Source: Eremomyces bilateralis CBS 781.70
Lineage: Eukaryota; Ascomycota; Dothideomycetes; Eremomycetales; Eremomycetaceae
Direction of reading: 5' to 3'
DNA: 64,000 bases
Assembly: GCF_010015585.1 (NCBI RefSeq)
Contig: NW_022985073.1
Location: forward strand, 676,923 to 740,922
The notes below the pieces were generated by a model. That model made no database searches, was not told where the DNA came from, and saw nothing but the letters and a program-made list of their open reading frames with translations. Shown one piece after another: positions 367 through 25,380 of this stretch. The position numbers were made by a program, and so were the translations under genes. The first letter of the stretch is position 1, and each line of letters starts with the position of its first letter.

Positions 367-1548
367 TCAGTATTTGCTTTCGAAGCTCGCCCCAAGACCA
401 TACAACCCTTTGACCAAGCCTAAGACAGCCTCGAATGTTGGATCTCCTGGCTCTTTCTTAGTGGCTCTTTTGGTGATGATCGTCGCTTCCACATCTGGCA
501 CCTTCCAGTCCTTTAATGTGGTTTTGAGGTCTAGCGACTCGACCAGATCTAATATGGCCTTCCCTACGGCTTTCGCATCGGCAATGTCATCCCCACTGCG
601 TGGGCGCCCAATGTAAGGGAGCATTCTGGCGATCTGGGCTGCGTCCGCGGGGTTAGACTCTGCCTTTAGCTGTACAACGTGACCAAGCGTCAGGCATGAC
701 GTGAAGCCGTGGGGGATGGAGTATGGTGAGCCGAGTGCGTAGCCGAGGACATGACTAAGGCCGAGTGGGCCAGAGACATTAAGGCCCAGGAATCCGAGCG
801 AGGCAAAGGCGCCGAGTTGAAGGTGCGTGATGGTCTCCTCGTTGCGAGGATCTTGTTTATACTTCGGGAGGTATGTAAATAAAGTTGAGATCGCTGATAG
901 ACACATCTGGCGAGCAGGAATCTCCGTCGCATTTGGATGATACATGAGTTCGACGGCGTGGTCGATTGCGCGGAAGCCGGTGGAAATCCAGAGTCGTGGC
1001 GGTGTCTCCAGAGCGAATATAGAGTCATATATGACCACACGGGGTGCCAGTGCGGGATCACTGACGGCTATCTTGAGGCCGTGTTCATTGGAGTAGCCGC
1101 CATTCATTGTGCATTCCGCAGCACTTAGCGTCGTGGGAATAGTGATGTGGAACAAGTATTTTCCCAGCTTCTCGTTCACACGGTAAGAAATTGCCTTAGC
1201 CGAATCGATCGGGCTCCCGCCGCCGACACTGATGATTGTGTCGATATTCGGATCCTCGACCACACGGTCGGTTGCCTGGTCCAGTTGAGCTACGGGAGCA
1301 TGCTGCTTGATGTCCGCAAATGTCCCGGCATGGTTCGCACCAAGCAAGCTTTCAACCTGTTTAATGAGGCCGGTCTTCGTAGCCAGCGAAGAACCGGTTA
1401 TGATGAAAGCTTTCGACTTCGGTGATGGAAGGGCATTGACTAATTGCTTCGACACGGAACCCGATCCATAATACAATTGCTGCAACTGTGTCGGCTTCCA
1501 CAGCCCAGACGAGGTATTCGTTGTACTCGCCATTGATTCACCAGGCAT
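367..1548 (-). CDS. Maleylacetate reductase-like iron-type alcohol dehydrogenase
   Basis: Single-exon gene for 393 residues, the usual length of iron-type (group III) alcohol dehydrogenases of the maleylacetate reductase branch. These enzymes reduce maleylacetate to 3-oxoadipate with NAD(P)H at the end of hydroxyquinol and resorcinol breakdown. The nucleotide-binding loop GGGSPIDSAK is at residues 109-118. The metal-site region reads D196, H266 and H280, with the 14-residue spacing of the last two typical of the family. The second classical ligand, four residues after the Asp, is Glu200 instead of His. Such a change is seen in members that do not depend on iron, so metal use is uncertain. Met6 is an equally possible start. 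The gene points away from the Myb-like gene. A role in aromatic breakdown would suit the neighbouring cluster, but it lacks the shared palindrome found there. Confidence 0.85.
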   Translation of the reverse strand: MPGESMASTTNTSSGLWKPTQLQQLYYGSGSVSKQLVNALPSPKSKAFIITGSSLATKTGLIKQVESLLGANHAGTFADIKQHAPVAQLDQATDRVVEDPNIDTIISVGGGSPIDSAKAISYRVNEKLGKYLFHITIPTTLSAAECTMNGGYSNEHGLKIAVSDPALAPRVVIYDSIFALETPPRLWISTGFRAIDHAVELMYHPNATEIPARQMCLSAISTLFTYLPKYKQDPRNEETITHLQLGAFASLGFLGLNVSGPLGLSHVLGYALGSPYSIPHGFTSCLTLGHVVQLKAESNPADAAQIARMLPYIGRPRSGDDIADAKAVGKAILDLVESLDLKTTLKDWKVPDVEATIITKRATKKEPGDPTFEAVLGLVKGLYGLGASFESKY

Positions 1549-7194: not shown

Positions 7195-7204
7195 CGGTAT
7201 ACCG
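7195..7204. promoter_or_regulatory. CGGTATACCG palindrome upstream of the MFS gene
   Basis: Perfect 10-bp palindrome of the form CGG-N4-CCG, 214 bp before the transporter start. Inverted CGG triplets are the usual binding sites of Zn2Cys6 dimers. The same ten bases occur in the dioxygenase/hydrolase promoter at 13829, and one-base variants occur at 12085 and 18270. A role as operator for the Zn2Cys6 protein at 21.3-23.5 kb is inference. Confidence 0.5.
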
Positions 7205-7418
7205 CGCTTCGATGTGCAACTTTGGCCGAACCGATTACACGGTGCATCTGGCCGGCTTGGCGACTCTGCACACGCAGATGGAAACTGCATATGCTCAGCT
7301 CTATTTAAACCCACAGGATACTACGATCTTCACGCCATAAGTCCCTCATTCTCTTCTAATATCATCACCCAACAGCGAAGAAACAAGTACGTGCGACTCG
7401 ACCTCTTTTGCTACCACA

Positions 7419-9220
7419 ATGTCAGACAAGGAAGCTGGCCAGAGGGCAGACCACCTGGAGACCACTACCGGCGACAACGCCAGCGAGATAATCAAGCAGA
7501 CAATTACCGTCGACACGTTGCACAATGATGAGGCAATGAAAGTGCTCGGGAACGCAAGGACCACTGACGCCGTTGACTGGGACGAAGATGAGGAACGGAG
7601 GCTCGTTCGCAAACTGGATTGGAAGTTGATGCCACTGCTCTTTCTGACATTTGGACTCCAATTCTACGACAAAGCATTGTTGTCTTCAGCAGTAAGTATC
7701 AGTGCCAATTATTATGGAAAAACGGTTTAAGATTTCACATACAGGCCCTTTTTGGAATGCGAGAGGACCTCAACCTAACCGGAAATCGATACAACATGTC
7801 TTCTTCCATCTTCTACTTGGGATATATTGCTGGTGCACTACCCACAGCGCTACTAGCACAACGATTCAAAGTCGAACGTGTTGCTGCGGGTCTCATCTTT
7901 GTTTGGGGCGCTTGTTGCACTGCCGCTGTTGGAGCTCGTAACTTCCAAACCTTGTACATCCAACGCTTCTTTCTTGGATTTTTGGAGTCTGGCATCTCTC
8001 CAATCTTCATGGTTATGGTGTCGAGCTTCTACAAGAAGGACGAGCAGGCATGGCGCCAGGGAATATGGTTTTCGGCCAGTAGGCTCTCAGCAATGTCCCA
8101 AGTTCGGAGAGTTCCACTAACAGTTTCTCAGGTGCTTTTATCAGCGTGCCTGGTCCACTTATCAACTATGGACTTGGACACATCACAGGCTCCCTTGCGC
8201 CGTGGAAATATATGTTCATTGTGGCAGGATGCCTCACAATGCTGTGGAGCATTGTGGTGTACTTCTTTATGCCACCAGATCCAATCCGAGCAAAGGGATT
8301 TACAGAAAGGGAGCGGTTCATCCTCGTCGCACGATTGCGATCTAACAACACGGGTGTCCGCAATACTCATTTCAAGGCCGCACAACTTATCGAAACCTTG
8401 GCCGATCCACGATTTTTGCTCACGTTTGCTATGGCATTCTTGATTTTCATTGTCAATGGCCCGGTTTCAACCTTCATGCCACTCATCATTGCCAGCTTTG
8501 GCTATAGTGGTTTCAACAGCCTACTTCTGTCGATACCAGTAGGTGCATTTGGCGGTGTCAGCGCACTTGCGTCAGCCTATTTGGCCCATCGTGTAGCTAG
8601 GCGCGGATGGAGAACATGGGTTATGATCGCGTTCCTAATTCCAGCCATCGTTGGTTCTGTTCTCTTGTGGCAAGTCGAGAGGAAGCATCAAGGGCCATCC
8701 CTCCTAGGTATCATCCTGTTGGGAGGGTTTGCTTCCCCATATGGTATCCTTATGGGTATACAGACTGCCAACACTGCAGGATATACCAAAAGATCGGTCA
8801 CTGCTGCTGGTATCTTTGTGGGTTACTGCCTGGGTAAGTACGATCATGGTCGACATTTCCCACCGCTCCGGCCATCCTCCGCTCCCCAATGCTCGAGATT
8901 ACTATACTCCAGAGACAGCTAACCAACTTTTCAGGCAATTTCACTGGCCCACTTCTATTCAAACCAGAAGATGCTCCTGGATACGCACCAGGGTTCTTGA
9001 GTGTTTTAATAACGAGTATAGCAGCCGGTGTCCTGGCCGTTGGATACAGATATATTTGCGTTTGGGAAAATCACAAACGCGACAAATCCGGTGTTGCGGA
9101 GGGCTTTGAGCATGCTTACGACGATGATGTCACGGACATAAAGGTATGTAGAATGTCTGTGAATCTGTTAGAACTCGATGCTAAGGAATGCAGAATCCAC
9201 AATTCAGATATAATATCTAG
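7419..9220 (+). CDS. MFS transporter, anion:cation symporter (Dal5/allantoate permease) family
   Basis: Five-exon gene for 514 residues, the normal size of the Dal5/TNA1 group of fungal major-facilitator permeases, which import small organic acids such as allantoate, nicotinate and aromatic acids across the plasma membrane. Introns: 7692-7744, 8079-8131, 8834-8934 and 9144-9193. The last exon is only eight codons plus stop. Family marks include the opening membrane segment after DWKLMPLLFLTF, the loop IFYLGYIAGALP, the region RFFLGFLESGISP and the C-terminal FRYNI just before the stop. About 12 hydrophobic segments are visible. The gene opens the aromatic cluster and has the shared palindrome in its promoter, so I infer that it brings in the aromatic substrate. 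The exact substrate cannot be read from sequence. Confidence 0.88.
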
Positions 9221-9827
9221 CGTGGGAAGTGTGCGCTCGATATACCGAGAACATAGAATTCTACCTATCACCAGCGATGCTTCGCGTAATTTGTCGTTGC
9301 TGGGTTAGTTGCTCCGTGTTGGCCGAAGGGTTCTCCCAAAGGATTCGAGAGTTCTGTATATACGCACTCTATCTCGTTGAAAACGGTTTTGATTGAGCCA
9401 TAAAGCTCCAGACCCCATTCTAAATTGAAAGCGCATCGAGGTAGACGTTCACGGGACAGTGAGGTTTTGCTGTCGCAGGGCCAACTGGAGTGTCATTTCC
9501 GTGAATAGTATGGGTTGCAAGTAACCCGTCAATTAAGTTATCAACGATCGAACAGGTACAGGCGATGGCCTGTCTCGATTACTTGGGCATTATACAGATC
9601 GTTGGTTCTTGGCATCTAGCCTTCAGTGACAACCTCTGTGGTTTGCGCATAGGCTCCGACCATCTGGCATACGACCTAATATTGACATTGATGATTGACT
9701 TAGATTAAGGAACTTGTACTGTATTCTATATGACTAAAACCTAGAAATATCGGGTGAAGAAGTAAATGCGGAGAGCATGGAAAGCCACGAAACTATAACC
9801 GGGTAGCTATATCGATGATTCCAACCA
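9221..9827. other. Intergenic between convergent genes
   Basis: About 600 bp between the ends of the transporter and the hydroxylase, which converge. It should hold both 3' untranslated regions. No coding frame, repeat or RNA gene is recognised. Confidence 0.4.
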
Positions 9828-11882
9828 TCAGTGCTGGAATGCAGCAAGGTCTTGAACTTTTTCATGCGCTTCCATCCCAACTGTACCGGTGAATGCATTC
9901 TCGGAGCCCGGAAGATTTTGTTGTGCTCGCTCACTATTGAATGTTGCGGACGGCTTTTTTCCAGCGACGATGGAAAGGATCTCCGCCACGTCTATGGTGT
10001 CCGCTGAGGCGCTCTCTGGGCATCGCCAGGCAACATGGTCGTCCGGTCGGACTAAGACTGCATCTCTTTCCCATACCTTTCGTGCAGCTCTTTCCTTTGG
10101 AAGGTGCACCGACTTCAGTGGCACGCCCTGCACAGATGCAACGGTTGAAAACGCTTGAAAATAGGCCGCTTCGGGTGTGAAATCGACCAGGGTGTACTCG
10201 TTTCCGGTGCCGAATAAGTCGAAGATGCTTGTCTGGCCGTCAGAGAGAAAGAGATGTGGAGCGCGGGCACCGGGCCACGTCGAGGGGACATAGTGCTTGT
10301 AGTTCCATGTCGGCTCTGCTTTCGGATCCTCGCTAATAACCGACGGAGAGTTGTTGTACCTGTACCCCAACTCAATACCGTGATCCGTGTTTTCTCCGTT
10401 GTGTGCTGCAACATGCTCAGAAATTTTGGCTCTCAACGCTGCTCCGTCGTCCGAATCTAGAGAGGCCATCTTTGGTACCGCAAGGCACCATTGACGGTAG
10501 GTGTGATGTACCATTTGGTGGACTCCAGAACGCTCGATATTCCTCGCAGCGACAGGTCGTCGTTCGGCTTCATAAGAATCCAGGAGATGCGGCCCTCCGT
10601 GGCCACGTACAACTGCTGCAATTTTCCAGCCAATGTCGAAACTGTCTCCCACCGCCGTGTTCATGCCATAACCGCCGGTTGGAATGTTCTGATGCGCCGC
10701 ATCTCCAGAGATAAATACCCGTCCGCCGCTTGACGTGTAATTATTCGCTAGATAAATGTTTGGCCGCCAGAGGCTGGTGACCAAAACCTCATCGACTTTG
10801 ATCTCAAATGGAGTGAGTTCACCACCAAGAGCGGTATATATGGCAGTGCAAGGGTCAATTTTAGAGACATCAGTGCCCAAGGGGACAGGGTTGTGGACCG
10901 TCCAAGTATCCTTCTCGTCTTGCGAAATGATGACTGAGCCGCTCGCAAAGAAGATATGCCAAAATTGCCCCTGCTGGTGCAAACGCGTCAGATCTCTTGA
11001 CTTGAAATGGATGAGATGCATCGCGGCAGGTCTCAACTCGTAGTTAGCGATGAGAATGAAGAGATAGGTGGATATACTTACACAGGTCCGCCTTCTAACT
11101 TGCTTCCAATGGCGGTTCTGACTTTGCTCCCTGCACCATCGCATCCTATGACATATAAGGACCGAATGATATGCCGGATCCCTTCAGCATCGACCACGAT
11201 GGATTCGACATAGGACTCCTTTTCGATCAAGCTTTCGAATTTCCAACCGAAATAGGTTTCGATGCTGGATGAGATTTGCAATTTAGGCTTCAACCAGGCT
11301 TCAAAGATTGCTTGAGAGCATCTCTGATACGGCTCACGTGGCATGGAACCGTCATTTTGCTCGCGTATCCGTGCCCGCCAGCTGTTCGGCGATGGAAGTT
11401 CCTTTTTGAGTTAATATTGGTACCGAACCCGAACAGGTTTATGCATTAACCTACCCATTTACCCATTATCTTGCCATTGTCAGACAGGCCAGTGCTAAAA
11501 TTGACATTAAACGAGTAATCCTGAGGAACACCTAATGTCGTTTAAGCAGTTGTTCAGGGGGTTCAAAGTGGGTGTGGCCAGGAGAGCAGATCAGCGTTAG
11601 GGGAGAAGATAGACATACCAACGTCGCGAAGCCCTTGGTCTATACCGAGACGTTTCAAGATCTCCATACTCCTGCAGTTCGTAATGTCCATCTTTGGCCA
11701 TTTAGTCGTGTCGAAGTTACGCTCGACCAACATGCATCGGGTGCCATTTGACGCCAATTGCAAAGCGGCAATCAGACCAGCCGGCCCAGCACCGACCACC
11801 AACACCGGTGCCTCATGCTCGACAGTTGCCTATTCGGTCAGTCGAGTCGGTTGCTTGCTTTGGGTTCGGGGGTGCCAACCAT
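9828..11882 (-). CDS. Class A FAD-dependent aromatic hydroxylase (MhpA/TfdB/phenol-hydroxylase-like)
   Basis: Five-exon gene for 604 residues, within the size of class A flavoprotein monooxygenases with a thioredoxin-like C-terminal domain. These add a hydroxyl group ortho or para to an existing one using NAD(P)H and O2. Visible marks: Rossmann motif GAGPAG (14-19), the conserved middle stretch GKIMGKW, a GD motif in the run GDAAHQNIPTGGYGMN that contacts FAD, and the C-terminal RPDDHVAWR. Introns: 11830-11879, 11532-11618, 11402-11454 and 11032-11081. The first falls directly after the ATG, with a weak GTTGGC donor but a good CTGAC branch site. It is needed because an in-frame stop precedes the FAD fold. 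It would prepare the substrate for the neighbouring dioxygenase. Confidence 0.85.
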
Positions 11883-12477
11883 ATTAAATTCTTCCTAGAA
11901 TGAGTGTAGTGCGAAGACTACCCGAAGCGTTGTACGGAGGTCAGTGCCTTGATCCGAAAAACAAAAACGGCGAGTTCTATCAGATGGATTCGAGCACCTA
12001 TATCTAGCGTGTCGTGAAGAGCCGGACAACCAGGTATAAACCCTCCAGGTTAGCCCGGCACCGGCGCGGAGTTGGTAGTGGGGACGGTATTCCGGGCCAG
12101 CCGCCTTTGTTGGTGCGCGCTCTGCCCTAGAAAGCCTACCTTACCGTCCTCGAACGATATATCTCGTGATACAGCATTCCGTCCAACACTCTTCAGCCCT
12201 CTTCTCTCTGGAGGAATGTCCCGTTTGCCACCATGTCTAGGTCCGCGGCCCCGAAATGAGTCTAGCATATATTGTCACTTCGGATTCATGATTGACTCTA
12301 ACTCAAATTTTGGGCTCCCGACTGACTTATACTGCATGTCACGAGCGTGGTAGTAAACAGAACGTACTTGCTACGCAGATGGATGATACGAGATGATGTC
12401 CAGCAGCGATTGAAGAGGTCAAATATAGAGTATACTAGGTCAAACCAACCAATATTCACAGTTATGTACCACCCACA
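11883..12477. promoter_or_regulatory. Promoter of the flavin hydroxylase with CGGTATTCCG site
   Basis: About 600 bp between the hydroxylase start and the dioxygenase stop. CGGTATTCCG at 12085-12094, a CGG-N4-CCG site one base away from the palindrome in the neighbouring promoters, lies about 200 bp upstream of the hydroxylase start. No coding sequence is recognised in the rest. Confidence 0.45.
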
Positions 12478-13659
12478 TCACAATTGCGCTGGTTTAGCCA
12501 CATCCAAATTAAGAGGCAACGGAATCGGCTTGCCAGCGTCCTCAATCCGGCCCGTGACAAAGGCTAGAGGGATGTTGGGACCCCAGACATAGAGAGAATC
12601 TGGAGCCGCAGCTTCGCGGCCGAATGGTGTATCTTCATTGACGAGATCTCCATCGGAATAGTGCTCAACCACATTGCCAGATCCATCAAACCTATAGATA
12701 CGCAGTCAGCAACAAACCCATGTCAATATCAACTTGATTAAGCTTTGGTTGTTCTTTACCAGTAATCGAAGATTTGGCTACCCAGAACGTGTCTACCAAT
12801 GCCCCAGCAATTGGTCCAGCCGTTCCTTTGTAGGTGATCGTGCCCCAACCTCTGCGTGTCAAAGTCGTTGACTTCGTAGCTTGAATGGTGTACGTGAGCA
12901 TGTGGCGCTTGCTTGCTAGCGGCGAGGAAAAAGCTCTGTCTGAATTAGAATGATCAAATCCCAGCAGTCAATCGTATGTACAACCGCACGTACATGATGA
13001 TCGGCGTACTGACTTCCAAGGTCAATGTGCATGAAGACAGTATCATCCTTGTTTGAGACTGGGTCGAACACAGCATCGGTGGGTTTAAGGTTGATGGTAG
13101 TGGTATACCATGAAAAGGATTCCTCGAATTTGTTCTGTGGTACCACATATCCGTAATGGCCCAGCTTGTGGACAGGGCTGGCACCGGGTAGGAACCGTCG
13201 GACAGCGCCCTTCCGCGGTTTTTCAACCGCTGTGTTGGAAGCATGGCCACTGTCCTTGCGCTCCAAGGCCCCGACATCGACATCCGGGGAGCGGAGGGTT
13301 TGTCCGTAGACAAACCCGACAGTATTGCCGTTGGGATCTGGCACGGTGACCACTCGGCCACCACCAGGGGCATCCAGGTTCTGAATAGACGAAGCGCCCG
13401 GGAGAGATGCTGCCTTTTCCAGCTCAGCTTCGCTATCCACAACCCAGTAACCTCCGGCGAAGTGCCTCTTTTCATCCGGAGACTGCTCTGCTAGATGGAC
13501 GAAAGGCTGTGCGCCATACCCGCGTAGAAATGTGCGGCCATCCCGTTCATCTTCTGTCACCAAGCCAAAGTCTCCAAAGAATTTGACTGCTTTGGCTAGG
13601 TCAGGGTGCTTGTAGTGGACGTGCGACAAGCGCACAACGCGGATCTTGTCAGAAACCAT
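12478..13659 (-). CDS. Extradiol ring-cleavage dioxygenase (glyoxalase/VOC fold)
   Basis: Three-exon gene for 351 residues with introns 12936-12993 and 12692-12759. The protein has two vicinal-oxygen-chelate modules, as in type I extradiol dioxygenases that open catechol-type rings next to the two hydroxyls using Fe(II) or Mn(II). The three expected metal ligands are visible: H13 in RLSHVHY, a His of the run AHVHHSSYEV (238/239) and E290 in GNVVEHYSDGD. The text DHHSFF is also characteristic. An ATG-initiated frame at 12692-12901 is out of register; the correct frame reads through YEVNDFDTQRLGHDHL. The gene is transcribed divergently from the FAH-family hydrolase across 289 bp, a classical arrangement for enzymes used together. 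The substrate is inferred to be a catechol or trihydroxybenzene made by the adjacent hydroxylase. Confidence 0.9.
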
Positions 13660-13828
13660 GTCAAATTCGTCGTCAATGAGTGCTCTGATGATTGTTGAAC
13701 TAGACGGCTAGACTTTGAATTTGAATTTGATTTGATTTGATTTAGAGAGATTATATTCCCTTTGACCAAACCGGTTTCACAACACAGTTGGGAACGTGCT
13801 TCTGGGCCCGATGTTGGGCGGCATACGA

Positions 13829-13838
13829 CGGTATACCG
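13829..13838. promoter_or_regulatory. CGGTATACCG palindrome in the divergent dioxygenase/hydrolase promoter
   Basis: Perfect palindrome, identical to the one upstream of the transporter and followed by the same CG dinucleotide. It lies 170 bp from the dioxygenase start and 111 bp from the hydrolase start, where one bound dimer could act on both genes. It is probably a Zn2Cys6 operator (inference). Confidence 0.55.
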
Positions 13839-13842
13839 CGAT

Positions 13843-13862
13843 CCGGTGTGGCTGCCGGTGTG
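13843..13862. promoter_or_regulatory. Direct repeat CCGGTGTG-N4-CCGGTGTG
   Basis: Two identical octamers separated by four bases, immediately beside the palindrome at 13829. Directly repeated CGG triplets twelve bases apart are another arrangement used by Zn2Cys6 factors. Function is inferred from position only. Confidence 0.4.
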
Positions 13863-13948
13863 CAGCTGTTAAAGTAGAAACGGTTTCCAGAACCATTGTT
13901 CTCGACGACGGCAATATTTTGCAAGGGCTTCGTGCATACAACGCAAAT

Positions 13949-14930
13949 ATGGCATTCGAGAAGCTTGTTCGATACCAGGTGGAAGGCTCGATCTATTATG
14001 GGGATCTGATAGAGACAGCTGAAACCGGCTTCAAAGTGCGCAGATTGAGCGGCGGTCTTGGTGGCTTTCAGCCACAAGGGGATATTGATACGGTGAACAA
14101 GGTAAGTTTCCTCAGGCCACACTACACACAGCCGGTAATTCTGACGTTCTTATCTCCGTAGCTCCTTTGCCCCTTGGAGAAGACGCCGATTATACTATGC
14201 ATCGGACTCAACTACAAGAAACATGCAACTGAAGCTTCAGTAAGCCAAATGCTCATGATGTTTTCCTCATTGCTTTGGTGCCGAGGTTTTGTCTGGCAAC
14301 GTAATCGCTGACGGCGGGCTTGTTCAGCTTGAAATTCCAGATTATCCCGTGGTCTTCACCAAGCCCTCGGATGCCCTTGCGGGACCCGGCGAAGCGATTC
14401 CTATCAGCCCAGGCGCTCAATCCATGCTGGACTATGAAGGGGAATTGGTCGTGGTAATTAGCAAGGACTGTAAGAATCTTCCTGAAGACGTTGATCTCAG
14501 CGAATATGTCCTTGGATACACGGCCGGAAACGATGTCTCAGCACGAAACTACCAACTTCCCAAAGCCGGCGGTGGTCAATATTCATATGCGAAGTCGTTC
14601 GACAAGTTTGCACCCATCGGTCCTTATATTGTCAGTTCGAGCGTCATCAAGGATCCGCAAAGCCTGAAATATGTCACGAGGGTGAACGGGAAGACGGTGC
14701 AGGAGACGGACACTGATGACATGATATGGTCGGTGAAGGCGATTCTGCGACACTTGACTCGGGGTACCACCGTGCGCGCAGGAACCATTATCATGACGGG
14801 CACACCAGCTGGCGTCGGCTTTTTCAGGAACCTCTTCCTACAGGACGGTGATATGGTCGAGGTCGAGATCGAAGGAGTGATGAAGCTGTCCAACATTATC
14901 AAGTACGAGGATCATGCTTCCAAAATGTAG
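13949..14930 (+). CDS. Fumarylacetoacetate hydrolase-family enzyme (acylpyruvate hydrolase/HpcE type)
   Basis: Three-exon gene for 291 residues with introns 14102-14161 and 14240-14285. The product matches the compact FAH-fold enzymes that hydrolyse C-C bonds of 2,4-diketo acids or isomerise ring-cleavage products. Conserved marks run in order: IGLNYKKHATEA, VVFTKPSDALAGP, the metal-binding YEGELVVVI, GYTAGNDVSARNYQ, and TIIMTGTPAGVG near the C-terminus. The start at MAFEKLVRYQ follows the family's usual N-terminus; an upstream ATG at 13796 would add an unrelated extension. It is divergent from the ring-cleavage dioxygenase, so the natural reading is that it processes the ring-opened product. 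Whether it releases acetoacetate, pyruvate or another acid is not visible. Confidence 0.9.
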
Positions 14931-16262
14931 TCGCCCAGGCAAAATAACTAATAGTCTGATAATCAAAGGCTTCTCTTCTGCTAGTATAAGGCTTCGGTTC
15001 GACTGTTAAGCTGTAGAGCCCGAGTACATCCCCTTAGGGCGGGTTGAACGCATGGGGATGGTGGTGAAGATGGTGATATGGTGCTGTAGGGGATCGAGCT
15101 GGTGGGAAAATTTCCCGTTGTGGTAATTACAGCGTGGCTACATCCGATTAAGTTCTCCCTAACTCGCACCCAGGGCTTTCTCTCGGCCCGGTTTCAACTC
15201 TAAACCCTCTATATCGACGAGTTCGTCGGGTCTTTGGAGAAAGAAATGTCGAACCCTCCCCGTATCCCAAACCTATCTGTACTTTCGTTCCGCTTCCCTT
15301 CGCTCCTCGTTAAATTTGGTGTCTGTCAGTACACAAATTTGCGGAGCCGGGTGAGTAGCTGGCGATTGGTTGGTGTGGCACAATTAACGGGGATTTGTGA
15401 AGAGATCTGCGTACCTTGTGACTGAGACTGAGACTGATCCTGCATCAGTAATGTTCCGGGTCAGTCCAATCGTGCGTCGGGCTCCGACAGGTGATGGGGT
15501 TGCTACCCCAGACGAAGTTTAGGATCGCGCGACTTGCTCACCTTCAAGTGAGTGAGCAGTTTGTTGGTGCTCACTATCAGGCATCGTGAGCACACCCACT
15601 GATCACTCTTCATCACTGTGAGCAGAGTGAGCAGGATGAAGGAATTGAATCACCGTGTATGTACACATCGAGGTTGCTTTCGACTAAGTTAGCTCTAGTT
15701 GTAAATTGATATCTTCGTCTACCCATACCTCTGCTTCACCTTGTGCGCTTCCCAGCTGATACTCCTCTCTAAGAGATTTAAACCCACGTGACGCATCCCT
15801 GATACCAGCTCACAACAAGCAGTTGTTATAGCGGTTATTTTACCTCTTGGAGCGCGGAGAGCTCTTAGAGTACGGGATTTAGGTATCCAAGTTCGTCGCT
15901 CAGACCTTGACGTCCATGTCATTTCGGAAGTCCTCGGTAATTTGCGGCTTTTGGTATAACTCCCTGCTCTATAACCGTCGAATCCTCAATCATCTCCCCC
16001 CTAACTATTCGTACCCACCCCGTTCCGGCTTATGACGGGAATTTGCTCGGCTGACGGATACCGAGTCGGAGGGTGAGTTCGGCTAAGGCTATATTAGTAC
16101 GCACCTGGATCCTTGATTGTCGTCCCAGCATATATACCCTCTTGTGGTGAGTTACCTTCTGAGCTTAAGAGCCCCTGCGAGAGCTTATATCAACCATCTA
16201 TATAAATCTGAATATCTTCGTTTATCCCCCCAACTGGCGTTTAAGGATACCTTACCGACGGA
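14931..16262. other. 1.3-kb intergenic region with diverged repeat and inverted motifs
   Basis: No convincing gene. It holds the left copy of the repeat that flanks the lipocalin-like gene and, near 15540-15640, several scattered copies of GTGAGCA/TGCTCAC in both orientations. CGG-ATA-CCG at 16055-16063 resembles the cluster palindrome but has three central bases. A weak open frame at 15719-15922 on the minus strand matches nothing I can name. Confidence 0.4.
15325..15437 (+). repeat. Left copy of diverged direct repeat flanking the lipocalin-like gene
   Basis: About 113 bp that aligns by eye with 16799-16920. Shared blocks include AGCTGGCGATTGGTTGGTG, GCCGGGTG, a CACAATT..A.GGGG segment and CTGAGACTGA. 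The copies are in the same orientation, about 1.47 kb apart. No coding content is seen. Confidence 0.7.
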
Positions 16263-16769
16263 ATGGCACACGAATCGATCCGCCAGCAGCTTATCGGCGC
16301 GTGGGAGCTCATCGAATACGTCGCGTATCTCCCCGACGATCCTTCTAATAAGGTCCACCCTATGGGCCCCAATGCAACGGGCATCATCATGTACACACCG
16401 GACGGGTACATGTCGGCGCAACTCCTGAAGCCGAACCAGGCGGCATTTGACACCGCCCAAGGGACCGCGAACGAATGGGCCCAGGTCGGCAAGAAATTCA
16501 TCGGTTATACGGGCCAGTTTTACTTGGACGAGCGCGGGGACGAAAAGGGTCGGCCAATCCTTATACATCATATGCGCAATGCGAGTCTGCCGTCCTTAAG
16601 AGGGGATAAGCAGAGGCGGCTCGTAGGATTTAGCAACGAAAGCGACGGCAAGTACCTGGTCCTGGGCGTAGAGGGGACAGTGGCTATCGGTACGGAGCGA
16701 AGGGTGCTTCAGTTGCGGTGGAGGAGACTGCCTTACAACGATAAGACGACGCCGCAGGAGAATCTTTGA
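16263..16769 (+). CDS. Lipocalin-like domain protein
   Basis: Single-exon gene for 168 residues, the size of the lipocalin-like (calycin, Lipocalin_5) family found in fungi and bacteria. The N-terminal text QLIGAWELIEY is the family hallmark. It is followed by PMGPNATGIIMYTPDGYMSA, and a later YTGQFYLDE strand fits the small beta-barrel. These barrels bind small hydrophobic molecules, and some relatives in fungal metabolite clusters act as accessory or isomerase-like proteins. Base composition is more GC-rich than its flanks. It is set between two copies of a diverged direct repeat, beside a transposase remnant, so it may have arrived or moved as a unit (inference). A specific role in aromatic breakdown cannot be deduced. 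Confidence 0.8.
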   Translation: MAHESIRQQLIGAWELIEYVAYLPDDPSNKVHPMGPNATGIIMYTPDGYMSAQLLKPNQAAFDTAQGTANEWAQVGKKFIGYTGQFYLDERGDEKGRPILIHHMRNASLPSLRGDKQRRLVGFSNESDGKYLVLGVEGTVAIGTERRVLQLRWRRLPYNDKTTPQENL

Positions 16770-16798
16770 GAAGAGATAGTGCGTTGTAATAAGTCTTT

Positions 16799-16920
16799 GT
16801 CAGGACATAGATTTTGCAAAGCCGGGTGGACAGCTGGCGATTGGTTGGTGAGGCATGTGCAGAACACAATTTAATGGGGGTCTGCATGACATGATCTGTG
16901 TACTTTTGTCTGAGACTGAT
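16799..16920 (+). repeat. Right copy of diverged direct repeat flanking the lipocalin-like gene
   Basis: Partner of 15325-15437 in the same orientation, with roughly three quarters of bases matching by eye and small insertions. It begins 30 bp after the lipocalin-like stop codon. Confidence 0.7.
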
Positions 16921-17203
16921 GCTGTGGCAAGTTATCTCAGTTGGGACTCAGACGGGATCTGCAAGATAGTTGTGGCGGTGCAGGCATCTTTCAGATGCCG
17001 TCTGAGGGCCTTTTGCAAGCATTTTGGTGGGCGCCCCGCGGAGGACAAAAATAGCAGGACTCACATTGGGCTTGGCGCCACCACCCGTACAGATTTCTAT
17101 ATAAAAACAGATATATTCACAATAACGCTGTCAATCCACGTCAAAATGGAAGGTGACGTTATTAAGTCTTATACAAACAGTCTATAGGTAAAAAACGCGG
17201 CGG

Positions 17204-17935
17204 TTAGCCCGCCATTCCGCCCCCATAACCAATCAGTTGACCACCAGCCTCGATCACCTTTCGAAGTCGATCAGGCATAGAAAGTACCCGTTTATTAATC
17301 CATTCCTGTTTAAGCTCTCCCCAGGCCTCGATCGCTAATTCACGAGTTTCTTCGGGATTGAAATGGCGATATTTCCGTACGTATTGCTTCGTCGGTTGCC
17401 AACAGTCCTCGATGATCGCAAGATCCGGCGATCCTGCGCAATTAAAGTACGAATGTACGCCATTTTGCTCTTTCCATTGTTGTACGGCATTGCCTTTTTT
17501 CCTTGACCGCGGCGGTGCGTGGCCTGAGTCTTGATCCTCCTCTAAAACGAAGAAATCTCCACGGTCGACCCATTCCTGAACTTCCGTCTGGAGTATCTCC
17601 TTGAGATAAACGTCCTGCGTCTTCTTCCCGTTTTTATTCGTCGGTATCTCGTAAAAGGTAAGGAGGGACTTGAAGTCGTAGCCCACCGCGGCCCATGCGT
17701 GGACTTTGAGCTTCTCTGCGTCGTCCCGTTCCTCCACGCGTTGGATACACTTGGGACAGTACCGTTCGCCGCGTTTCCGGATAATAACGAGCTTCCCTTG
17801 AGGCCCCATCCCGAAATGGACTTCGTCGCTATATCTGATACAATCGCGAGAGCAATAAGGCGCCGCATACAACCCAAGGAGGAACACCCACCAACACGGC
17901 GAAAGGGGACCAGAATGCCAGAAACAGCGCAGCAA
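17204..17935 (-). mobile_element. 5'-truncated Tc1/mariner-type transposase
   Basis: Open frame of 243 residues matching the catalytic half of a Tc1/mariner DDE transposase. The first acidic residue is in RYSDEVHFG and the second in LEEDQDSGH. The third is in DLAIIEDCW, where the text DCWQPTKQYVRK is typical. The N-terminal helix-turn-helix half is missing: upstream sequence to about 18000 gives only broken frames. AT-rich stretches with TAAAAAAC near 17190 and, inverted, near 18040 may be eroded ends, but I could not align convincing terminal repeats or a clean TA duplication. It is a plain DNA transposon remnant, inactive because its DNA-binding part is lost. Confidence 0.75.
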
Positions 17936-18670
17936 GTGCCAACCGGCACGATATCACGCAAAGCACCCTAGAAATTGCCAAGGTCCAAGGCATCCCACGG
18001 CGCCAGCACGGAATAACGTGAAGGTTTTCCCCTACTGGGGTTTTTTATCCTCCATAGTTGCCGTACAGCCTGCATAGACCAATAGGGACCGAATCAGGCG
18101 TTAAATAGAATTATTAATAATAATAATATCTTTTCTATGGAACCTACTCCGTACATTTGGTGCAATTTCTGGTATTGTCGTAGTCTGGATATCAACATCC
18201 CCAGATGAACTACAGCTGTGATTGGGTTGTCACCCATGTATGATAGGTATTGGCAGCATTGGCAGTGTCCGGTTTACCGGTACCTGCCGGTGAACACGGC
18301 ATCCCGGTCAAAGTCTGTGGGGGCGGCGCGCCCCGTCTGCGCCTCCGGAGCCCCATTTTACAGAGCACTGGTACGGTACTCGGGACATAGGCACGCATTC
18401 CTTACTCTGACCGCGCCGGCAGCCGACGCAGGGCACGGGATGGGAGACAAGACGGCTGACCGGGCGGCACCGTTCTGGATGACCGACGGCCCCATTCATG
18501 AAGGCCGGCTAGTGGTGTGCACCATAAGATCATAAGAATCAATTATTGTTATTTGCAGCCGCCGCTTTCCCGACACTTCCTTCACTCCTTTATCAGACCT
18601 ATACGGTACTCACTTGTCTACCGAAAATTAAGTCAGGATATCTCCTGCTCCGGACCAGAATACAGCAACC
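17936..18670. promoter_or_regulatory. Promoter region of acetoacetyl-CoA synthetase with CGGTTTACCG site
   Basis: About 730 bp between the transposase remnant and the synthetase start. CGGTTTACCG at 18270-18279 is one base from the cluster palindrome CGGTATACCG and keeps the CGG-N4-CCG form. It lies 392 bp upstream of the start codon. A TAATAATAATAATATC run is at about 18116. No gene is recognised. Confidence 0.45.
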
Positions 18671-20968
18671 ATGGGCTCGGAACCGATTTGGGTACCTAGC
18701 AATACGCGACACACTGGCATCCACACCTTTCGGCTGTACGTCAATCGGACATATTCCTTGAATCTTCAGACATACGATGACCTACACAAATGGTCTGTCA
18801 TGAACATCCCGGACTTTGCCGAAGCTCTTTTCGTTTTTGCCGGCATCCACGCTTCGACCCCGTACCTTCGACCAGCCGATGGAGTCGACACCATGTATCC
18901 GCCGCCACGGTGGTTTCCCGGTGCCCGGTTGAATTACACCGAGAATATCCTTAAGCCTGGACTCGGGTTGCGACCGAACGGTATTGCCGTTACTGTCTGT
19001 GACGAAGACCCGAGTACGAGTGTCGATATCACGTTCCTCGAGCTCGAGAGACAGACAGCACTCTGGGCTACGGCGTTGCGGAACATGGGTGTTGGAGTGG
19101 GAGACAGAGTTGCTAGTAGGTTTCAGCCATTTTTTACTTTGCTTCTTTTCACCTCCCCCCGCCTCACATTTTGGGTTGAGATTTCGAACATCTGTGCTTG
19201 GAAAGATACTGAGCATCGATAGCTGTGCTACCCAACAAACTCGACTGCCTCCTTGTTCTCCTGGCTGCTGGCTCTATCGGGGCGATTTTCTCGTCGACCT
19301 CACCTGACATGGGTGCCACTGGTATTATCGAGAGGTACAAACAGGTTCGACCTAAGGTTTTGGTTTGTGATACCGTCGTCACCTATGCAGGCAAGAAAAT
19401 AGATTTGCGGAAACGACTATTTGAAGCAAACAAAAAGCTATCTGAGCTGGTCCCCGAGCTTCAACATACCTTGGTGGCCAATGGTCCCATCTTTGAGGGC
19501 CAAAACGTGAAATCGGCCAACTCTGTGCTTGCGGCCACCCGTGCAACAAGTCCCCGATACGAGCAGCTTCCCTTCGACCACCCGATCTACATCCTGTACA
19601 CCTCCGGCACGACGGGGACTCCAAAATGCATCACGCATGCAGCAGGTCGAGCACTCCTGCAACAAAAGAAAGAACTCATCCTCACCGGGGACGTCAAACC
19701 CAACTCGACTTATTATCAATACACGACGACTGGTTGGATGATGTGGAATTGGGTCGTGGCAGTATTGAGCGTGGGTGGGCGAATCATTCTTTATGATGGC
19801 AGTCCGCTTCATCCCACGCCGAGTGCGCAAATCGAGTTGATCAAGAAACAGGAGTGAGTGTGCCACGATCGAAGACCCTCGGTCGCTGTCGAGCCCAGCG
19901 GTTGTGCAGCGCCGGCCTTGGTACTGACCTCTTTGCCATAGTGTCACCCACTGGGGAACAAGTCCAAAATTCCTCGCCGCCCTGAGACGCTCTGGGCTTC
20001 CCAAGGACATGGACCTTCCGAGTCTCTGTCATGTCGGTTCTGCAGGATCGCCCCTCAGCGCCGAGCTCCATCGATGGTTCGCAGACACGTTTCCGGCTGG
20101 AGTAGGACTAACCAGCGGTTCGGGGGGTACTGACCTGGTCGGAGGGAGTGAGTATATGACTCATCTATCTGATGTGCAGCTAGACTTCTGACCATTTGAA
20201 GTTGTCTCCGGCAGTCCGATAACCAATATCTACCCTGGTGAGATCTCCGTGCCAAACCTAGGCATGAAGGTCGAAATCTGGGACAGTTCGGGGAGGAATA
20301 TTGAAGACTCCGGCGAGAAAGGTGATCTCGTTATTACGAAGCCCTTTTTCAGCATGCCAATAGGGTTCTGGGGTGAGAATGGCAAGGCCAAGTACCGTGC
20401 AGCTTATTTTGAGCAGTATCCCGGCGTATGGTACCACGGGGACTTCATCAGGAAAATCCCCGGGACCAATGGTTATGAGATTCTGGGCAGAAGCGACGGC
20501 GTCCTTAACCCTGGAGGTATGTGTCCCACCCGGCAAATGATCGAGAACACTTCACTGACAAATCCAGGCGTGCGGTTTGGCAGCGCAGAAATTTATGGCA
20601 TCTTGGACAAGTTTGAAGAACTCCAAGATTTCCTCTGCGTTGCACAGAAGCTTCCACCCACCTTTCAGGATGAGCAAGTCTTGCTTTTCATTATGATGGC
20701 CGCTGGCAAGCGGCTTGACGACAGTCTTTTGTCCAGGATCAAGCAGGAAATATCGCGATCACTCAGTCTGAGACACGTTCCGGGTGGGATACACGAGGTG
20801 CACGGTATTCCCTATACCGTGAACGGAAAGCGTATTGAGAATCTAGTGAGGGATATTGTGGCCGGGAAATCCGTCGGTGAAGCGCGAACCGCGATAAATC
20901 CAGAGTGTCTGAAGGAATATGAGAACTTCAGGCTCGGCGCCGCGGAAGCAGCGCAAAGCAAGCTCTGA
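18671..20968 (+). CDS. Acetoacetyl-CoA synthetase
   Basis: Five-exon gene for 665 residues, the normal length of acetoacetyl-CoA synthetases of the acyl-adenylating (ANL) superfamily, which convert acetoacetate, ATP and CoA to acetoacetyl-CoA. Introns: 19116-19222, 19854-19941, 20148-20201 and 20517-20567. The AMP-binding signature YTSGTTGTPK is at about residue 270. It is followed by TTTGWMMWNW, and the adenylation-core text SGSGGTDLVGG and GRSDGVLNPGG are family-specific. The N-terminal cap beginning MGSEPIWVPS also fits. No mitochondrial targeting sequence is evident, so action in the cytosol is likely. It lies between the ring-cleavage genes and their presumed regulator, which suggests that the pathway releases acetoacetate. 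A duplicate of a general leucine-degradation enzyme is the alternative. Confidence 0.92.
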
Positions 20969-21266
20969 AGTGCTTTTGGGGGGTTTCCAGAGAATGGAAT
21001 GGAATTTTTGATGTTCTATTAGTCATGTCAACTAGTTTGTCCTAGATACGGTTCGGTCTGGGTACAAGAGTAGAGCCAACTAGGTCACTGAACTCCTGTT
21101 GCTTGATCAACAGGCGGTGAATTACCGTAGAATTTAAGATATAATACAGACTGGGGGAGTCCCCAATCATGTCCTGACCTGAGTACCAGCCTTCAACCCC
21201 GGAGATACTGCCTGGAATCATGTAGACCCTTACTTGTACTGGTATAAACCCCCCCACCAGTCTGCA
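20969..21266. other. Short convergent intergenic region
   Basis: About 300 bp between the ends of the synthetase and the Zn2Cys6 gene. It must hold both 3' ends, and nothing else is recognised. Confidence 0.4.
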
Positions 21267-23541
21267 TTATAACTGAAAGTCTGCAGAAAGCACGGGAGTT
21301 CTACGTTCATGCAAAGGCTGCTCGTATGCTGGCGCCTCAGGTGGTCCCGGAAGCTGGCTATACTTGTCCTCTAAGGAAGGGGGAATCTCGTTCATGTTAT
21401 CAATATCAGCAGGCCAGTCGATTTGTCCAAAAAAATTGTATCCCTCGAGCACTGTTTCAGCGTAGTCGAGACCATGTACTTGGGTGCCGGGCTGGGACAC
21501 GTTCGAGGGACGATTGCTGCCAGCCCCCTTGCGCCTCGGAAAGAACACAGAGAAGCGCTTGACAAGCGCATGGTCTGCCGTGCCGCCGCCCTGGAGGCAC
21601 ATCATCTGGAGTACAGCTTGCAAGGATTTAGCATCCATCGATGCATCAATCAGGACGAAGCCACGTACCTAATGTTTCAGATGCAAGTTTCCACTTCCCG
21701 GCAAAATGGGCGAAGATCAGTTCTGCCAATCGCCCTATAGCCTCAAAATCTCTCGCCACTTTTGCCAGGGCTGTTGAGATATCCATTGGAAAATGGATAG
21801 GTAGCATCATGCAAAGAAAAAAAGGATGCGCTGCCACAAGATAGTCTGTTGGCCATCGCGTAATGATTCGCGTAAACGACTTTGCATGTGCACTGCTGGC
21901 ATGTTCGACAACTTGGCTTGAGCAGGAAAGAGAGCTCGGCCCTTCATCGTTGTTAAGTGGCATCATCTCAATCATTGCGTATGCCTGGTTCAGGAGCAGA
22001 TGGGTCCCCATGATCCAATTAGAGGTCCCAAATGATTGTTGGTCGAATGTCGGCAGGTTGGTCGAAATGTTGAACTCGGGAGGCAGTGAGAGTCTGAAGC
22101 AGTTCACACTAACTTCTAAGACATATTTCACTTCCGTGAGGTCTTGCTTTTTTTTATTCAGTTCTTGATAGACCAGTGAAAGAAGGTGGTTGGCCACTAA
22201 GAACCATGCGCGAGGATCCTGATTCTCTGCAGCCTGGAGGGATTTCCAACACTGATGATGAGATGTCATAAGCAGGGCAGATTGACACATATTTCCGGAG
22301 AACCAGGCGTTGTCCGATACTGGCAGGTTGACAGAAAACTGGTGACGGTCCACTGCGAATGGTCTTTGGCTAACCATGGAGCCGAACGTGTCCAGCTCCC
22401 ATATCAGCCACCAGGCGCGACGCATCTCCTCCTTCTGTGTTGAGTCCAGTTGCGGATCTTCAGAATCGGGGTCGTCGATTTCGAACAGTTCCATTTCGTA
22501 GGCCAGCCGGACGCAAACGCCAGTGAGGATCCAGCTTTGAGCATTCAGCTCCGAGGTGTAGTCGTTGAAAGCGAGCAAGATGCAACCTTGCACATACTGT
22601 AGTGAAGATATTTTGGTGGATCGTGCCTCGGCATAGGCATGGCGTGCTGCCTTCATAAACGGTTCATCTCGGTCTCGCGGATCGATGAGGTCGAAATGAG
22701 GTGAATTAGAGTGGCGCGCAGACAGGGCAAAAAGACTGTAGAGCAATAGTTTCATGTCGACAGGCAACTTAGACAGAGCATCGGGCTCGTGACTGAGATG
22801 CTGAGAACAGTACGCCGTGAAGCGAGGCCGGTGGAGAAGTGGCAGCCATGGCTGGATATGCAGAAAGAATACTTCCACCAAGTGCATTGCCACATCACAG
22901 GACACGCGTGCTTCGGTGGTCAACTTGGTTGGGGCCTGTGCTTGCTTGTTGGTCGAAGCGGGGACATCCGATCCTGCCACATTCTCGCCAGTGCCATTGT
23001 CCAACTGGCTCACGCTCACTGATGAGCCGTCCAGGCTCGCGAGATCATGGGCGAAAACGGTTTCCAAGTCTGATTGCGATGGCGAGTCGGCCAAAACAAC
23101 GTCTGGGGCAACTGCGTCACCGGCCGTAGGAGATAGATTCGAAACGAGACCATGATGGCGAGCGTCACCAGATCTAGGAGACAGATTCGACACGAGATCA
23201 TGATCACGGATTTCACCCGGACTCGGCGACGGATTTGGGACAAGGCCATGTTCGCGAAGCAGGTAGGTAGCGCGGGGAGACTTGAGGACGCTCAGCAGCC
23301 GATCCATGTTGCCTTCCACCTCACGCAGGCCGGTTTTCCGTCTCTTGTTGCTGGTAGATGGAGGCTTTCGCTTGATGGGAAAGTAACATTTGCTGCCAGT
23401 CCGACGACACAGTCCACAGGCCGGCCGTGACATATCGCATTTCGTTTTCTTCCGGTGGCATTCCTGACAGGCGCGTGGAATCGTCTGCCATGGAAATTGA
23501 GAACGGCTCCATTGGACTTCGTCGGTCTGTGCCATGGTCAA
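21267..23541 (-). CDS. Zn2Cys6 fungal transcription factor
   Basis: Two-exon gene for 740 residues with one late intron at 21617-21668. The binuclear zinc cluster uses C25, C28, C35, C42, C45 and C52, followed by the basic linker KRKPPSTSNKRRKTG. After a linker containing four loose repeats of a motif like LVSNLSP (about residues 108-145) comes the fungal-specific middle homology domain, starting near LVEVFFLHIQPWLPLLHRPRF. That domain occurs in activators and repressors that respond to small molecules. An alternative start is Met3. The gene closes the catabolic cluster and is its best local candidate regulator. Factors of this class bind paired CGG triplets, in line with the CGG-N4-CCG palindromes upstream of four cluster transcription units. 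That pairing of factor and sites is inference. Confidence 0.9.
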
Positions 23542-23828: not shown

Positions 23829-25380
23829 CTCGCACCCCACGCCCATTACAAGTAATAGGCGCTATCCACCTCAATGTACACGAATCTGAGGTAAGGTCTA
23901 CCATTCTGTATACATATATGAAAACACGCTATTTTTGCGGATTTAGCATAGAAACACGTAGGAAATAGGCTAATCTTCCCCTATATGAAATTACATCAAT
24001 ATTAAATAGATTGGCGGGCTGATGAGCCGCTCTTCGCCTCTGACGATCACCACCACCAATACGACATCACCAACTTTGAACTCCTCTACCACCACGAATA
24101 AAGAAGATATTAGGAAGGTCAATCCGTAGATACACGCTATGAAGAGGCAGCTTTCGCCTAAGGGGCGTTTTCCCGTGCCTTGCGTGCCATTTCCGCCCTT
24201 TTTCGGTCTCGGACTTATTCCCGTTCCTCCTTCTGTTTTTCCTTTTCCAGACGCTCTGTCTCCCTATTGTCGACGATATGACGACATTCCTCAATTGATA
24301 ATAGACCACCGCTGAAAACGTGTCGTCGTGACACGTTATCATTGAGCTTACGCATGCGTTTTGCGAGGTCTGATTCGTGAAGGTCTAGCATGGCCTTTTT
24401 CGCCTCCAAGGCCTGTGTCTGCGCGCCGTGATTGAGCTGATTGATGCGGGCGACCAGGTCGGCTGGAACGTCCGCCACCTTCAATATCTCCTCCTGTATA
24501 TGATCCACCAATCGCTGTGTCCCTCGTACTGTTTTTGGCGTGGTGAAAATGATATCGGTTGGAGGTGGAGGCGTAACCGGACGGGCAGTTTCGGTTTCGT
24601 CGGGGATCTGATTCTCTGTGCAGACCTCATGAAATGCGGAAAACCAGTCGGTATTATCCTGTACGTTCTCTGCGTTCCTTCGCTTCAGATCTCGCATCCG
24701 CTGTTTCTTTGCCAATATATCTGGATGACGGTCGAGGAATCGCTTCACCCAGCGGTTTCCAAGAGGCGGTGGCTGACCAGGACTAGTATGATATTCGCTC
24801 ATCGCCTAGGTCGCTGCACCCTATAATTATTCCTTGGTTGGAGACATCCGGAGCTTCTCTAATCGTCTCACGTACTGGACCAGGAAGACCTCTATAGGCG
24901 CGGGGATCCGGAGATTCGTTCGTGGGCGTTGACCCCGCCCGGGGATGCCCATGAGGCGATTCGTGACGCGGCGCTATTCAACGCGGTGGGCTCGAGCTGC
25001 CTCTGCGGCTGATGGAAAAAGTCCTTCTGCATATTAATCTGCAGCCAATTTGATGCGATTCTCTATCTTTTCTTTCTCAGATTTCATGATGGGGTGAGGG
25101 ATAGGCATGATTCAATTTTGGGGGTGGGTTTTGGGGTGGAAGAGTGGTTAGATTGGGCGGCATATCAAACCACGATGGAAATGAATTAGAATTTCAAACA
25201 ATATCTAGCAGCTTAGATAATTGGATTAAATTCACTAATCCACCAAAATAAGTACGGAATACTGCAATGGTGCGAAGATAACACGCTTCGACGCGTCCTG
25301 GGACTATTTCATGTACATTGAGGTGGCTTGTCCGTTGAGGTGGATAGCGCCCATTACTTGTAATGGGCGTGGGGCGCGAG
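23829..25380 (-). mobile_element. Pogo/Fot1-like DNA transposon with intact ends and deleted transposase
   Basis: A 1,552-bp element bounded by TA target duplications (23827-23828 and 25381-25382) and by terminal inverted repeats of about 46 bp that differ at two positions. Each repeat contains its own small palindrome (CCATTAC-N2-GTAATGG form). The right end has an extra repeat of the CACCTCAA block. Inside, on the minus strand, a transposase remnant runs from about 25088 to 24215. It begins with a psq-type helix-turn-helix region, then a CENP-B/Tc5-type domain (RWVKRFLDRHPDIL), then the charged C-terminal tail. The whole DDE catalytic core is missing between them. Several stops in the N-terminal part (for example after KLAAD and after AHRVE) look like CAA/CAG changed to TAA/TAG. 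It would be a non-autonomous element, mobilised only by a relative elsewhere. Confidence 0.85.

Follow-up and report, generated by a model that had tools for sequence, protein, structure and literature searches.

The genes considered here lie between 7.2 and 23.5 kb of a 64-kb stretch of contig NW_022985073.1 from the dothideomycete Eremomyces bilateralis CBS 781.70, the whole of which is called the window below, and are examined as a candidate cluster for extradiol cleavage of an aromatic ring. All seven genes named in a preliminary description of this DNA (a transporter, an aromatic hydroxylase, a dioxygenase, an FAH-fold hydrolase, a lipocalin, an acetoacetyl-CoA synthetase, and a Zn2Cys6 factor) were found in this interval. 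Gene models were spliced by hand from intron signals, and each is open from its ATG; families were named by Pfam and NCBIfam, which agree with the earlier assignments. The genome searched for further copies comprised 26.6 Mb in 62 contigs.

The first gene encodes a major facilitator superfamily (MFS) transporter (positions 7419 to 9221, forward strand; 514 amino acids [aa], five exons; Pfam MFS_1, 1e-35), a putative importer whose best NCBIfam matches, to the D-galactonate transporter model TIGR00893 and the 4-hydroxyphenylacetate permease HpaX, both fall below cut-off. It is followed by a class A flavin aromatic hydroxylase, FMO (9828 to 11882, reverse strand; 604 aa, five exons), which carries the domains expected of that class, FAD_binding_3 (PF01494, 1.9e-63) and Rng_hyd_C (PF21274, 1.5e-14), and passes the cut-off of NCBIfam model NF004780 (455.7 versus 445 bits). 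Its closest PDB sequences are 2,4-dichlorophenol 6-monooxygenase (3.1e-56), RebC, and 2-hydroxybiphenyl 3-monooxygenase. The first exon of the FMO model consists of the ATG only, an odd arrangement that we consider credible because the relative at a second locus, L051, introduced below, has a similar micro-exon, reading by eye ATGGCT and then an intron at the equivalent position. The dioxygenase gene, DIO (12478 to 13659, reverse strand; 351 aa, three exons; stop codon at 12478 to 12480), encodes a two-domain VOC protein of the class I extradiol type (Glyoxalase/dioxygenase, PF00903, 1.6e-8). Divergent from it is the gene for an FAH-fold hydrolase and proposed acylpyruvase, FAH (13949 to 14930, forward strand; 277 aa, three exons; FAA_hydrolase, 1.3e-64); only 289 bp separate the two ATGs, in line with the earlier remark that these genes share a promoter. 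A single-exon Lipocalin_5 gene of doubtful membership (16263 to 16769, forward strand; 168 aa; Pfam, 6.1e-26) precedes the acetoacetyl-CoA synthetase gene, AACS (18671 to 20968, forward strand; 665 aa, five exons; AMP-binding, 2.9e-48), whose product passes the cut-off of the acetoacetate--CoA ligase model TIGR01217 (629.4 versus 520.9 bits). The set ends with a Zn2Cys6 transcription factor gene (21267 to 23535, reverse strand, with its start at 23535; 738 aa, two exons; Fungal_trans, 3.1e-24; Zn_clus, 3.9e-9).

The residues of DIO argue for a ring-cleavage enzyme. Across 21 aligned rows, H168, H239, and E290 are invariant, and in a profile alignment they fall on the 2-His-1-Glu ligand positions of homoprotocatechuate 2,3-dioxygenase and catechol 2,3-dioxygenase, in keeping with the preliminary statement that the metal ligands are intact. 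H222, H271, and Y280 are likewise invariant. We take the first three to be the metal ligands and the other three to be counterparts of second-sphere residues. A single-sequence search of the PDB returned one weak match, 3b59 (2.8e-4), while the profile built from the 21 rows matched 30 sequences, among them 3b59 (1e-25), homoprotocatechuate 2,3-dioxygenase 1f1r (9.9e-16), and catechol 2,3-dioxygenase 1mpy (4e-13). An AlphaFold2 model of a bacterial relative, L052, rather than of the window protein itself (pLDDT, 87.6), matches 3b59 and 1mpy with a query TM-score of 0.78; DIO thus has the 2-His-1-Glu site in the C-terminal domain of a two-domain VOC protein, with the fold checked on that relative. 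On these grounds DIO very probably performs extradiol ring cleavage. It lies far below the cut-offs of the named NCBIfam extradiol equivalogs (C23O, 44.9 versus 320.2 bits; HpaD, 41.1 versus 321.4; BphC, 31.4 versus 366.45), and its substrate therefore cannot be read from a name. No second copy of DIO was found in the genome by protein search. A PF00903 search gave seven matches elsewhere in the genome and missed the window DIO itself, and it therefore leaves room for further intron-split dioxygenases.

A candidate regulatory element joins four promoters of the set. The motif CGGTWTWCCG has seven matches on both strands of the window, at five distinct sites, against an expectation of 0.39, and none of 100 shuffles reached seven. 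The pattern CGG[AT]4CCG recovers the identical five sites: CGGTATACCG in the MFS promoter (7195 to 7204, 224 bp upstream of the ATG), CGGTATTCCG in the FMO promoter (12085 to 12094), CGGTATACCG again between DIO and FAH (13829 to 13838; 170 bp from the DIO ATG and 111 bp from that of FAH), CGGTTTACCG in the AACS promoter (18270 to 18279, with two more CGG-N4-CCG sites at 18297 and 18453), and CGGTTTTCCG inside the Zn2Cys6 factor gene (23331). In 1,000 shuffles of the four promoters, the pattern never occurred in all of them. The more general CGGNNNNCCG is only mildly in excess overall (25 versus 16.1 expected; 3 of 100 shuffles reached 25). The promoters of the lipocalin and factor genes, as delimited here, contain no element. 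CGG[AT]4CCG is probably the site at which the Zn2Cys6 factor acts, and we have little doubt, judging from the sequence, that this is a real co-regulated cluster.

A second locus of fungal type supports this grouping. A scan of genome contigs with DIO gave 22 loci, one of which, L051 (NYXK01000232.1), is filed under a deltaproteobacterial metagenome-assembled genome (MAG), a probable contamination of that record. We regard L051 as probably a fungal contig in a bacterial bin because of the fungal-type introns in its DIO gene and the presence of a Zn2Cys6 gene; in both the window and L051, the DIO introns follow DHH and DYW. Identity between the two DIO proteins is 57% by tblastn and 63% in the alignment. 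Relatives of the factor, AACS, DIO, and FMO all lie within about 11 kb at L051, where the factor relative (34% identity to the window factor over 642 columns) adjoins AACS. Summed over its pieces, the L051 AACS scores 367 bits against the cluster AACS, compared with 198, 180, and 119 bits against the three other copies in the E. bilateralis genome. Between the DIO and FMO genes of L051 stands another flavin enzyme; a 143-aa piece of it gave eight matches, which include salicylate hydroxylase; the closest are 8gsm ("4-hydroxybenzoate decarboxylase," 2e-25) and, annotated as a decarboxylative vanillate 1-hydroxylase, 8x38 (9.6e-17). Elsewhere in the same MAG, at C11:40043-43215, an MFS match (31%) adjoins an FAH match (41%).

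Bacterial relatives place the same families side by side. Among the other 21 loci of the scan, several of them incomplete, an FAH relative was found in 10 (in 3 of these within 310 bp), FMO in 4, and a weak AACS in 1, at a distance of 7.4 kb. Plasmids yielded 111 records with DIO relatives, and 22 loci drawn from the best 50 of these were searched by tblastn with the window proteins over flanks of 5 or 7 kb, leaving out the near duplicates H4, H17, H21, H22, H24, and H25 as well as H27, H28, and H31 to H50. FAH was present at all 22, lying within 350 bp of the DIO match at 16 and at most 6.8 kb away (L089, where the match is cut off by the edge); an FMO-type flavin hydroxylase stood within 5 kb at 11, a weak AACS (22 to 24% identity) at 3, and a lipocalin and an MFS gene at 1 each. 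These counts are not independent, since L086, L087, L090, and L091 are close to one another and L097 and L099 are nearly identical. The gene rows read FMO-VOC-FAH, hydroxylase-VOC-FAH-acyl-CoA synthetase, and VOC-FAH-acyl-CoA synthetase; in another, an acyl-CoA synthetase follows VOC, and elsewhere a 3-keto-5-aminohexanoate cleavage protein stands beside it. Both of these recurring neighbors could handle a 3-oxo acid. On Sphingopyxis granuli plasmid pRW412a (L084), the FMO and DIO relatives are 39.9% and 34.2% identical to the window proteins, and L085, which was found through FMO and has no DIO relative, combines FAH-FMO with a nearby CoA transferase and thiolase. Like L084, Burkholderia multivorans (L090) and Microvirga ossetica (L095) carry hydroxylase-VOC-FAH operons resembling the window set, with an acyl-CoA synthetase gene in L090 and L095. 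By their gene content, the bacterial counterparts look like catabolic operons, and they differ from the fungal cluster in having TetR genes nearby and, at the three loci tested, a synthetase of the PRK07529 type instead of AACS. In a tree, the FMOs of the window and L051 group with the bacterial FMOs L084, L085, L058, and L062 (100/99), apart from two paralogs in the E. bilateralis genome. DIO is only weakly placed among the bacteria (80/35, in a tree with a long-branch row), and the closest relative of FAH is a fungal paralog; we therefore make no claim that the whole cluster was transferred from bacteria. No relative was found among viral contigs.

The preliminary description had likened the genes to the MhpA-MhpB logic of bacterial meta pathways. 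In the MhpABC pathway for 3-hydroxyphenylpropionate, a class A hydroxylase is followed by an extradiol dioxygenase, MhpB being of the LigB type and MhpC an alpha/beta hydrolase. The window likewise pairs a class A hydroxylase with an extradiol-type dioxygenase, and an MhpA-type hydroxylase does accompany the VOC and FAH genes of several bacterial relatives, the hydroxylases of L090, L095, L100, and L105 being annotated as MhpA-like. The fungal FMO, unlike these, belongs to another subfamily by both NF004780 and the tree, the dioxygenase is a VOC rather than a LigB protein, the hydrolase has the FAH fold, and no Mhp-type hydratase or aldolase was recognized in the cluster. We reject the label because it names the wrong dioxygenase class: DIO is a PF00903 protein, and the LigB-family matches of this genome lie outside the cluster, on contigs C12 and C41. 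As read from the sequence, the pathway logic is FMO-VOC-FAH. The broader suggestion of a dedicated fungal extradiol route fared better and draws good support from the DIO active site, from the element that the promoters share, from the clustering of four genes at L051, and from the bacterial operons.

In the scheme that we infer, from import and binding by this factor through the FAH reaction to the order of the steps and the substrate, the MFS protein would import the substrate, FMO would hydroxylate it to a vicinal diol, and DIO, with a divalent metal, would open the ring beside the diol. The opened product, a 2,4-diketo acid, would then be hydrolyzed by FAH, yielding pyruvate together with a 3-oxo acid, and AACS would convert that acid, acetoacetate, to acetoacetyl-CoA. 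The best NCBIfam match of FAH is a 2,4-diketo-acid hydrolase model, NF053535 (5.8e-46), at a score below its cut-off (157 versus 500 bits); its closest PDB sequence is the 4-hydroxyphenylacetate isomerase/decarboxylase 1gtt (5.8e-45), among 25 FAH-fold sequences that include the acylpyruvase FAHD1. That FAH releases acetoacetate is suggested by the presence of AACS in the cluster. The bacterial rows, with FAH and in some cases a CoA ligase or another enzyme suited to a 3-oxo acid, offer what the breakdown of a trihydroxylated ring would require. Extradiol cleavage of such a ring would give a 2,4,6-trioxo acid, from which an acylpyruvase could release pyruvate, leaving a 3-oxo acid; a methyl side chain would make that 3-oxo acid acetoacetate and so explain AACS. 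Pyruvate and acetoacetate are, in our estimate, about as probable as all other outcomes taken together.

The best-fitting substrate would be a methylresorcinol, either orcinol itself or a relative such as orsellinate, passing through 2,3,5-trihydroxytoluene and 2,4,6-trioxoheptanoate to pyruvate and acetoacetate; this choice, made from gene content, is tentative and stands a little below even odds. At L051, the relative of decarboxylating 1-hydroxylases would suit orsellinate, which it might convert directly to 2,3,5-trihydroxytoluene. Chapman and Ribbons are said to have described, in 1976, an orcinol pathway with cleavage to acetate and acetylpyruvate, at a different bond from the one proposed here. 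Trihydroxytoluene and 2,4,6-trioxoheptanoate are both named in the legend of a pathway figure (PMC8571283); their order is our reading, and the likeness to the bacterial orcinol and methylhydroquinone pathways is one of intermediates and not of genes. An account of riboflavin catabolism includes the formation of pyruvate and acetoacetate after an extradiol step, by other enzymes, and serves as an analogy only (PMC12746152). Taken as a whole, the best explanation is a co-regulated catabolic cluster that may degrade an orcinol-type substrate to pyruvate and acetoacetate, to which we give a probability of roughly one-half.

Several observations weigh against this explanation. The element was spotted by eye before any statistical test; a broad test, in which any class of CGG/CCG half-site pair with a spacer of 0 to 15 counted as a success if one class and spacing occurred in all four intervals, succeeded in 141 of 2,000 random interval sets drawn from 24 to 64 kb. 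CGGN4CCG is absent from L051, where no other half-site class or spacing was present in all four promoters tested (CCG-N3-CCG was present in three). The 21 kb of L051 examined yielded no match to FAH, MFS, or lipocalin, the two FAH matches in its MAG sit on contigs of other lengths, and of the five L051 AACS pieces, one scores slightly higher against another E. bilateralis paralog than against the cluster copy (63.5 versus 61.6 bits). The synthetases tested in L090, L095, and L086 are of the PRK07529 type. Decarboxylases and isomerases share the FAH fold as well, and by best single alignment FAH is closer to a paralog in the same genome (189 bits, 45%) than it is to the FAH of any bacterial operon. 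Finally, three further AACS-like genes of the E. bilateralis genome, on contigs C4, C11, and C40, are piecewise 33 to 46% identical to the cluster copy, and AACS therefore need not serve this route. A separate group in the genome, at C9:353000-369000, contains an FAH gene (45% identity to the window FAH) and two FMO paralogs (29 to 32%); inspection by eye adds a further FAD monooxygenase, a hydrolase, and part of an MFS gene.

A rival explanation is a catechol-type meta route, in which FMO makes an alkylcatechol, DIO opens its ring, FAH acts as a C-C hydrolase, hydratase, or decarboxylase, aldolase or other genes elsewhere finish the route, and AACS is an unrelated neighbor. The classical meta route yields a carboxylic acid together with hydroxypentadienoate, after which a hydratase and then an aldolase act. 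The DIO profile does match catechol 2,3-dioxygenase and homoprotocatechuate dioxygenase, FAH also matches HpaG/HpcE, and HpcH_HpaI family matches occur at two places elsewhere in the genome; a DmpG-type aldolase search, for its part, gave a signal in none of 14 control genomes. We consider this route unlikely, since no such lower-pathway gene was recognized in the cluster, the AACS promoter carries the element, and the cluster copy of AACS is the one that the L051 gene matches best. Use of DIO to open a polyketide ring in building a secondary metabolite would account for the resemblance of FMO to RebC, RdmE, and similar flavin enzymes that act in antibiotic biosynthesis. It is improbable, because Pfam revealed no synthase among the genes of the interval, an acetoacetate CoA ligase fits breakdown better, and the bacterial counterparts look catabolic. 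More improbable still is a chance neighborhood of genes from more than one pathway, which the DDE remnant at 17204 to 17953 and the local repeats around the lipocalin gene might suggest; the genes are intact, four promoters have the element in common, and four of the genes cluster at L051.

Those repeats bear on the lipocalin, the one gene of the preliminary set that is present but whose membership was not established. It is flanked by two copies of a repeat of about 100 bp that did not turn up a third time in the genome, and its GC content at third codon positions is 0.70, against 0.52 to 0.59 in the six other genes. Since it shares no element and is surrounded by local repeats, we regard it as a doubtful member. 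A gene neighborhood on a Mycobacterium riyadhense plasmid (L100), in which a Lipocalin_5 gene lies 0.9 kb from a DIO relative and near VOC-FAH-MhpA-like genes, hints that the family plays a role in such pathways; that protein is 30% identical to the window lipocalin over 81 columns. The DDE_3 transposase remnant (17204 to 17953, reverse strand), between the lipocalin and AACS genes, scores 23.1 bits, below the Pfam cut-off of 28.6, and an open reading frame at 24215 to 24805 (reverse strand) resembles by eye a portion of a second transposon-type protein. An iron-containing alcohol dehydrogenase gene (367 to 1548, reverse strand) lies outside the cluster, at a distance of about 6 kb; its candidacy as a maleylacetate reductase and cluster member is not supported, the protein being below the cut-offs of all 14 NCBIfam models listed and having no CGGTWTWCCG nearby.

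Extradiol enzymes are described as less common in fungi (PMC12388069), and orcinol degradation by Aspergillus niger is cited in a passage of PMC8484666. The cluster would have fungal aromatic catabolism in common with the ring-cleavage enzymes of A. niger, for which 17 candidates were picked by PF00775, PF02900, and PF04444, according to the selection described in PMC10512348; a set so chosen would not include a PF00903 enzyme. No fungal cluster with the present gene set was seen among the matches listed from the open-access literature. The window genes probably serve, in a fungus, the uptake of a small phenolic and an extradiol-type opening of its ring that is mainly known from bacteria, and surveys of fungal ring-cleavage genes that omit PF00903 would miss this class. 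Because the gene set is defined and comes with a regulator, a candidate DNA element, and a substrate proposal, fungal extradiol catabolism becomes directly testable. A complete fungal route that salvages methylresorcinol polyketides such as orcinol and orsellinate to pyruvate and acetoacetyl-CoA is a possible, if rather unlikely, extension of these findings; if true, it would return polyketide carbon to near the units from which it was built.

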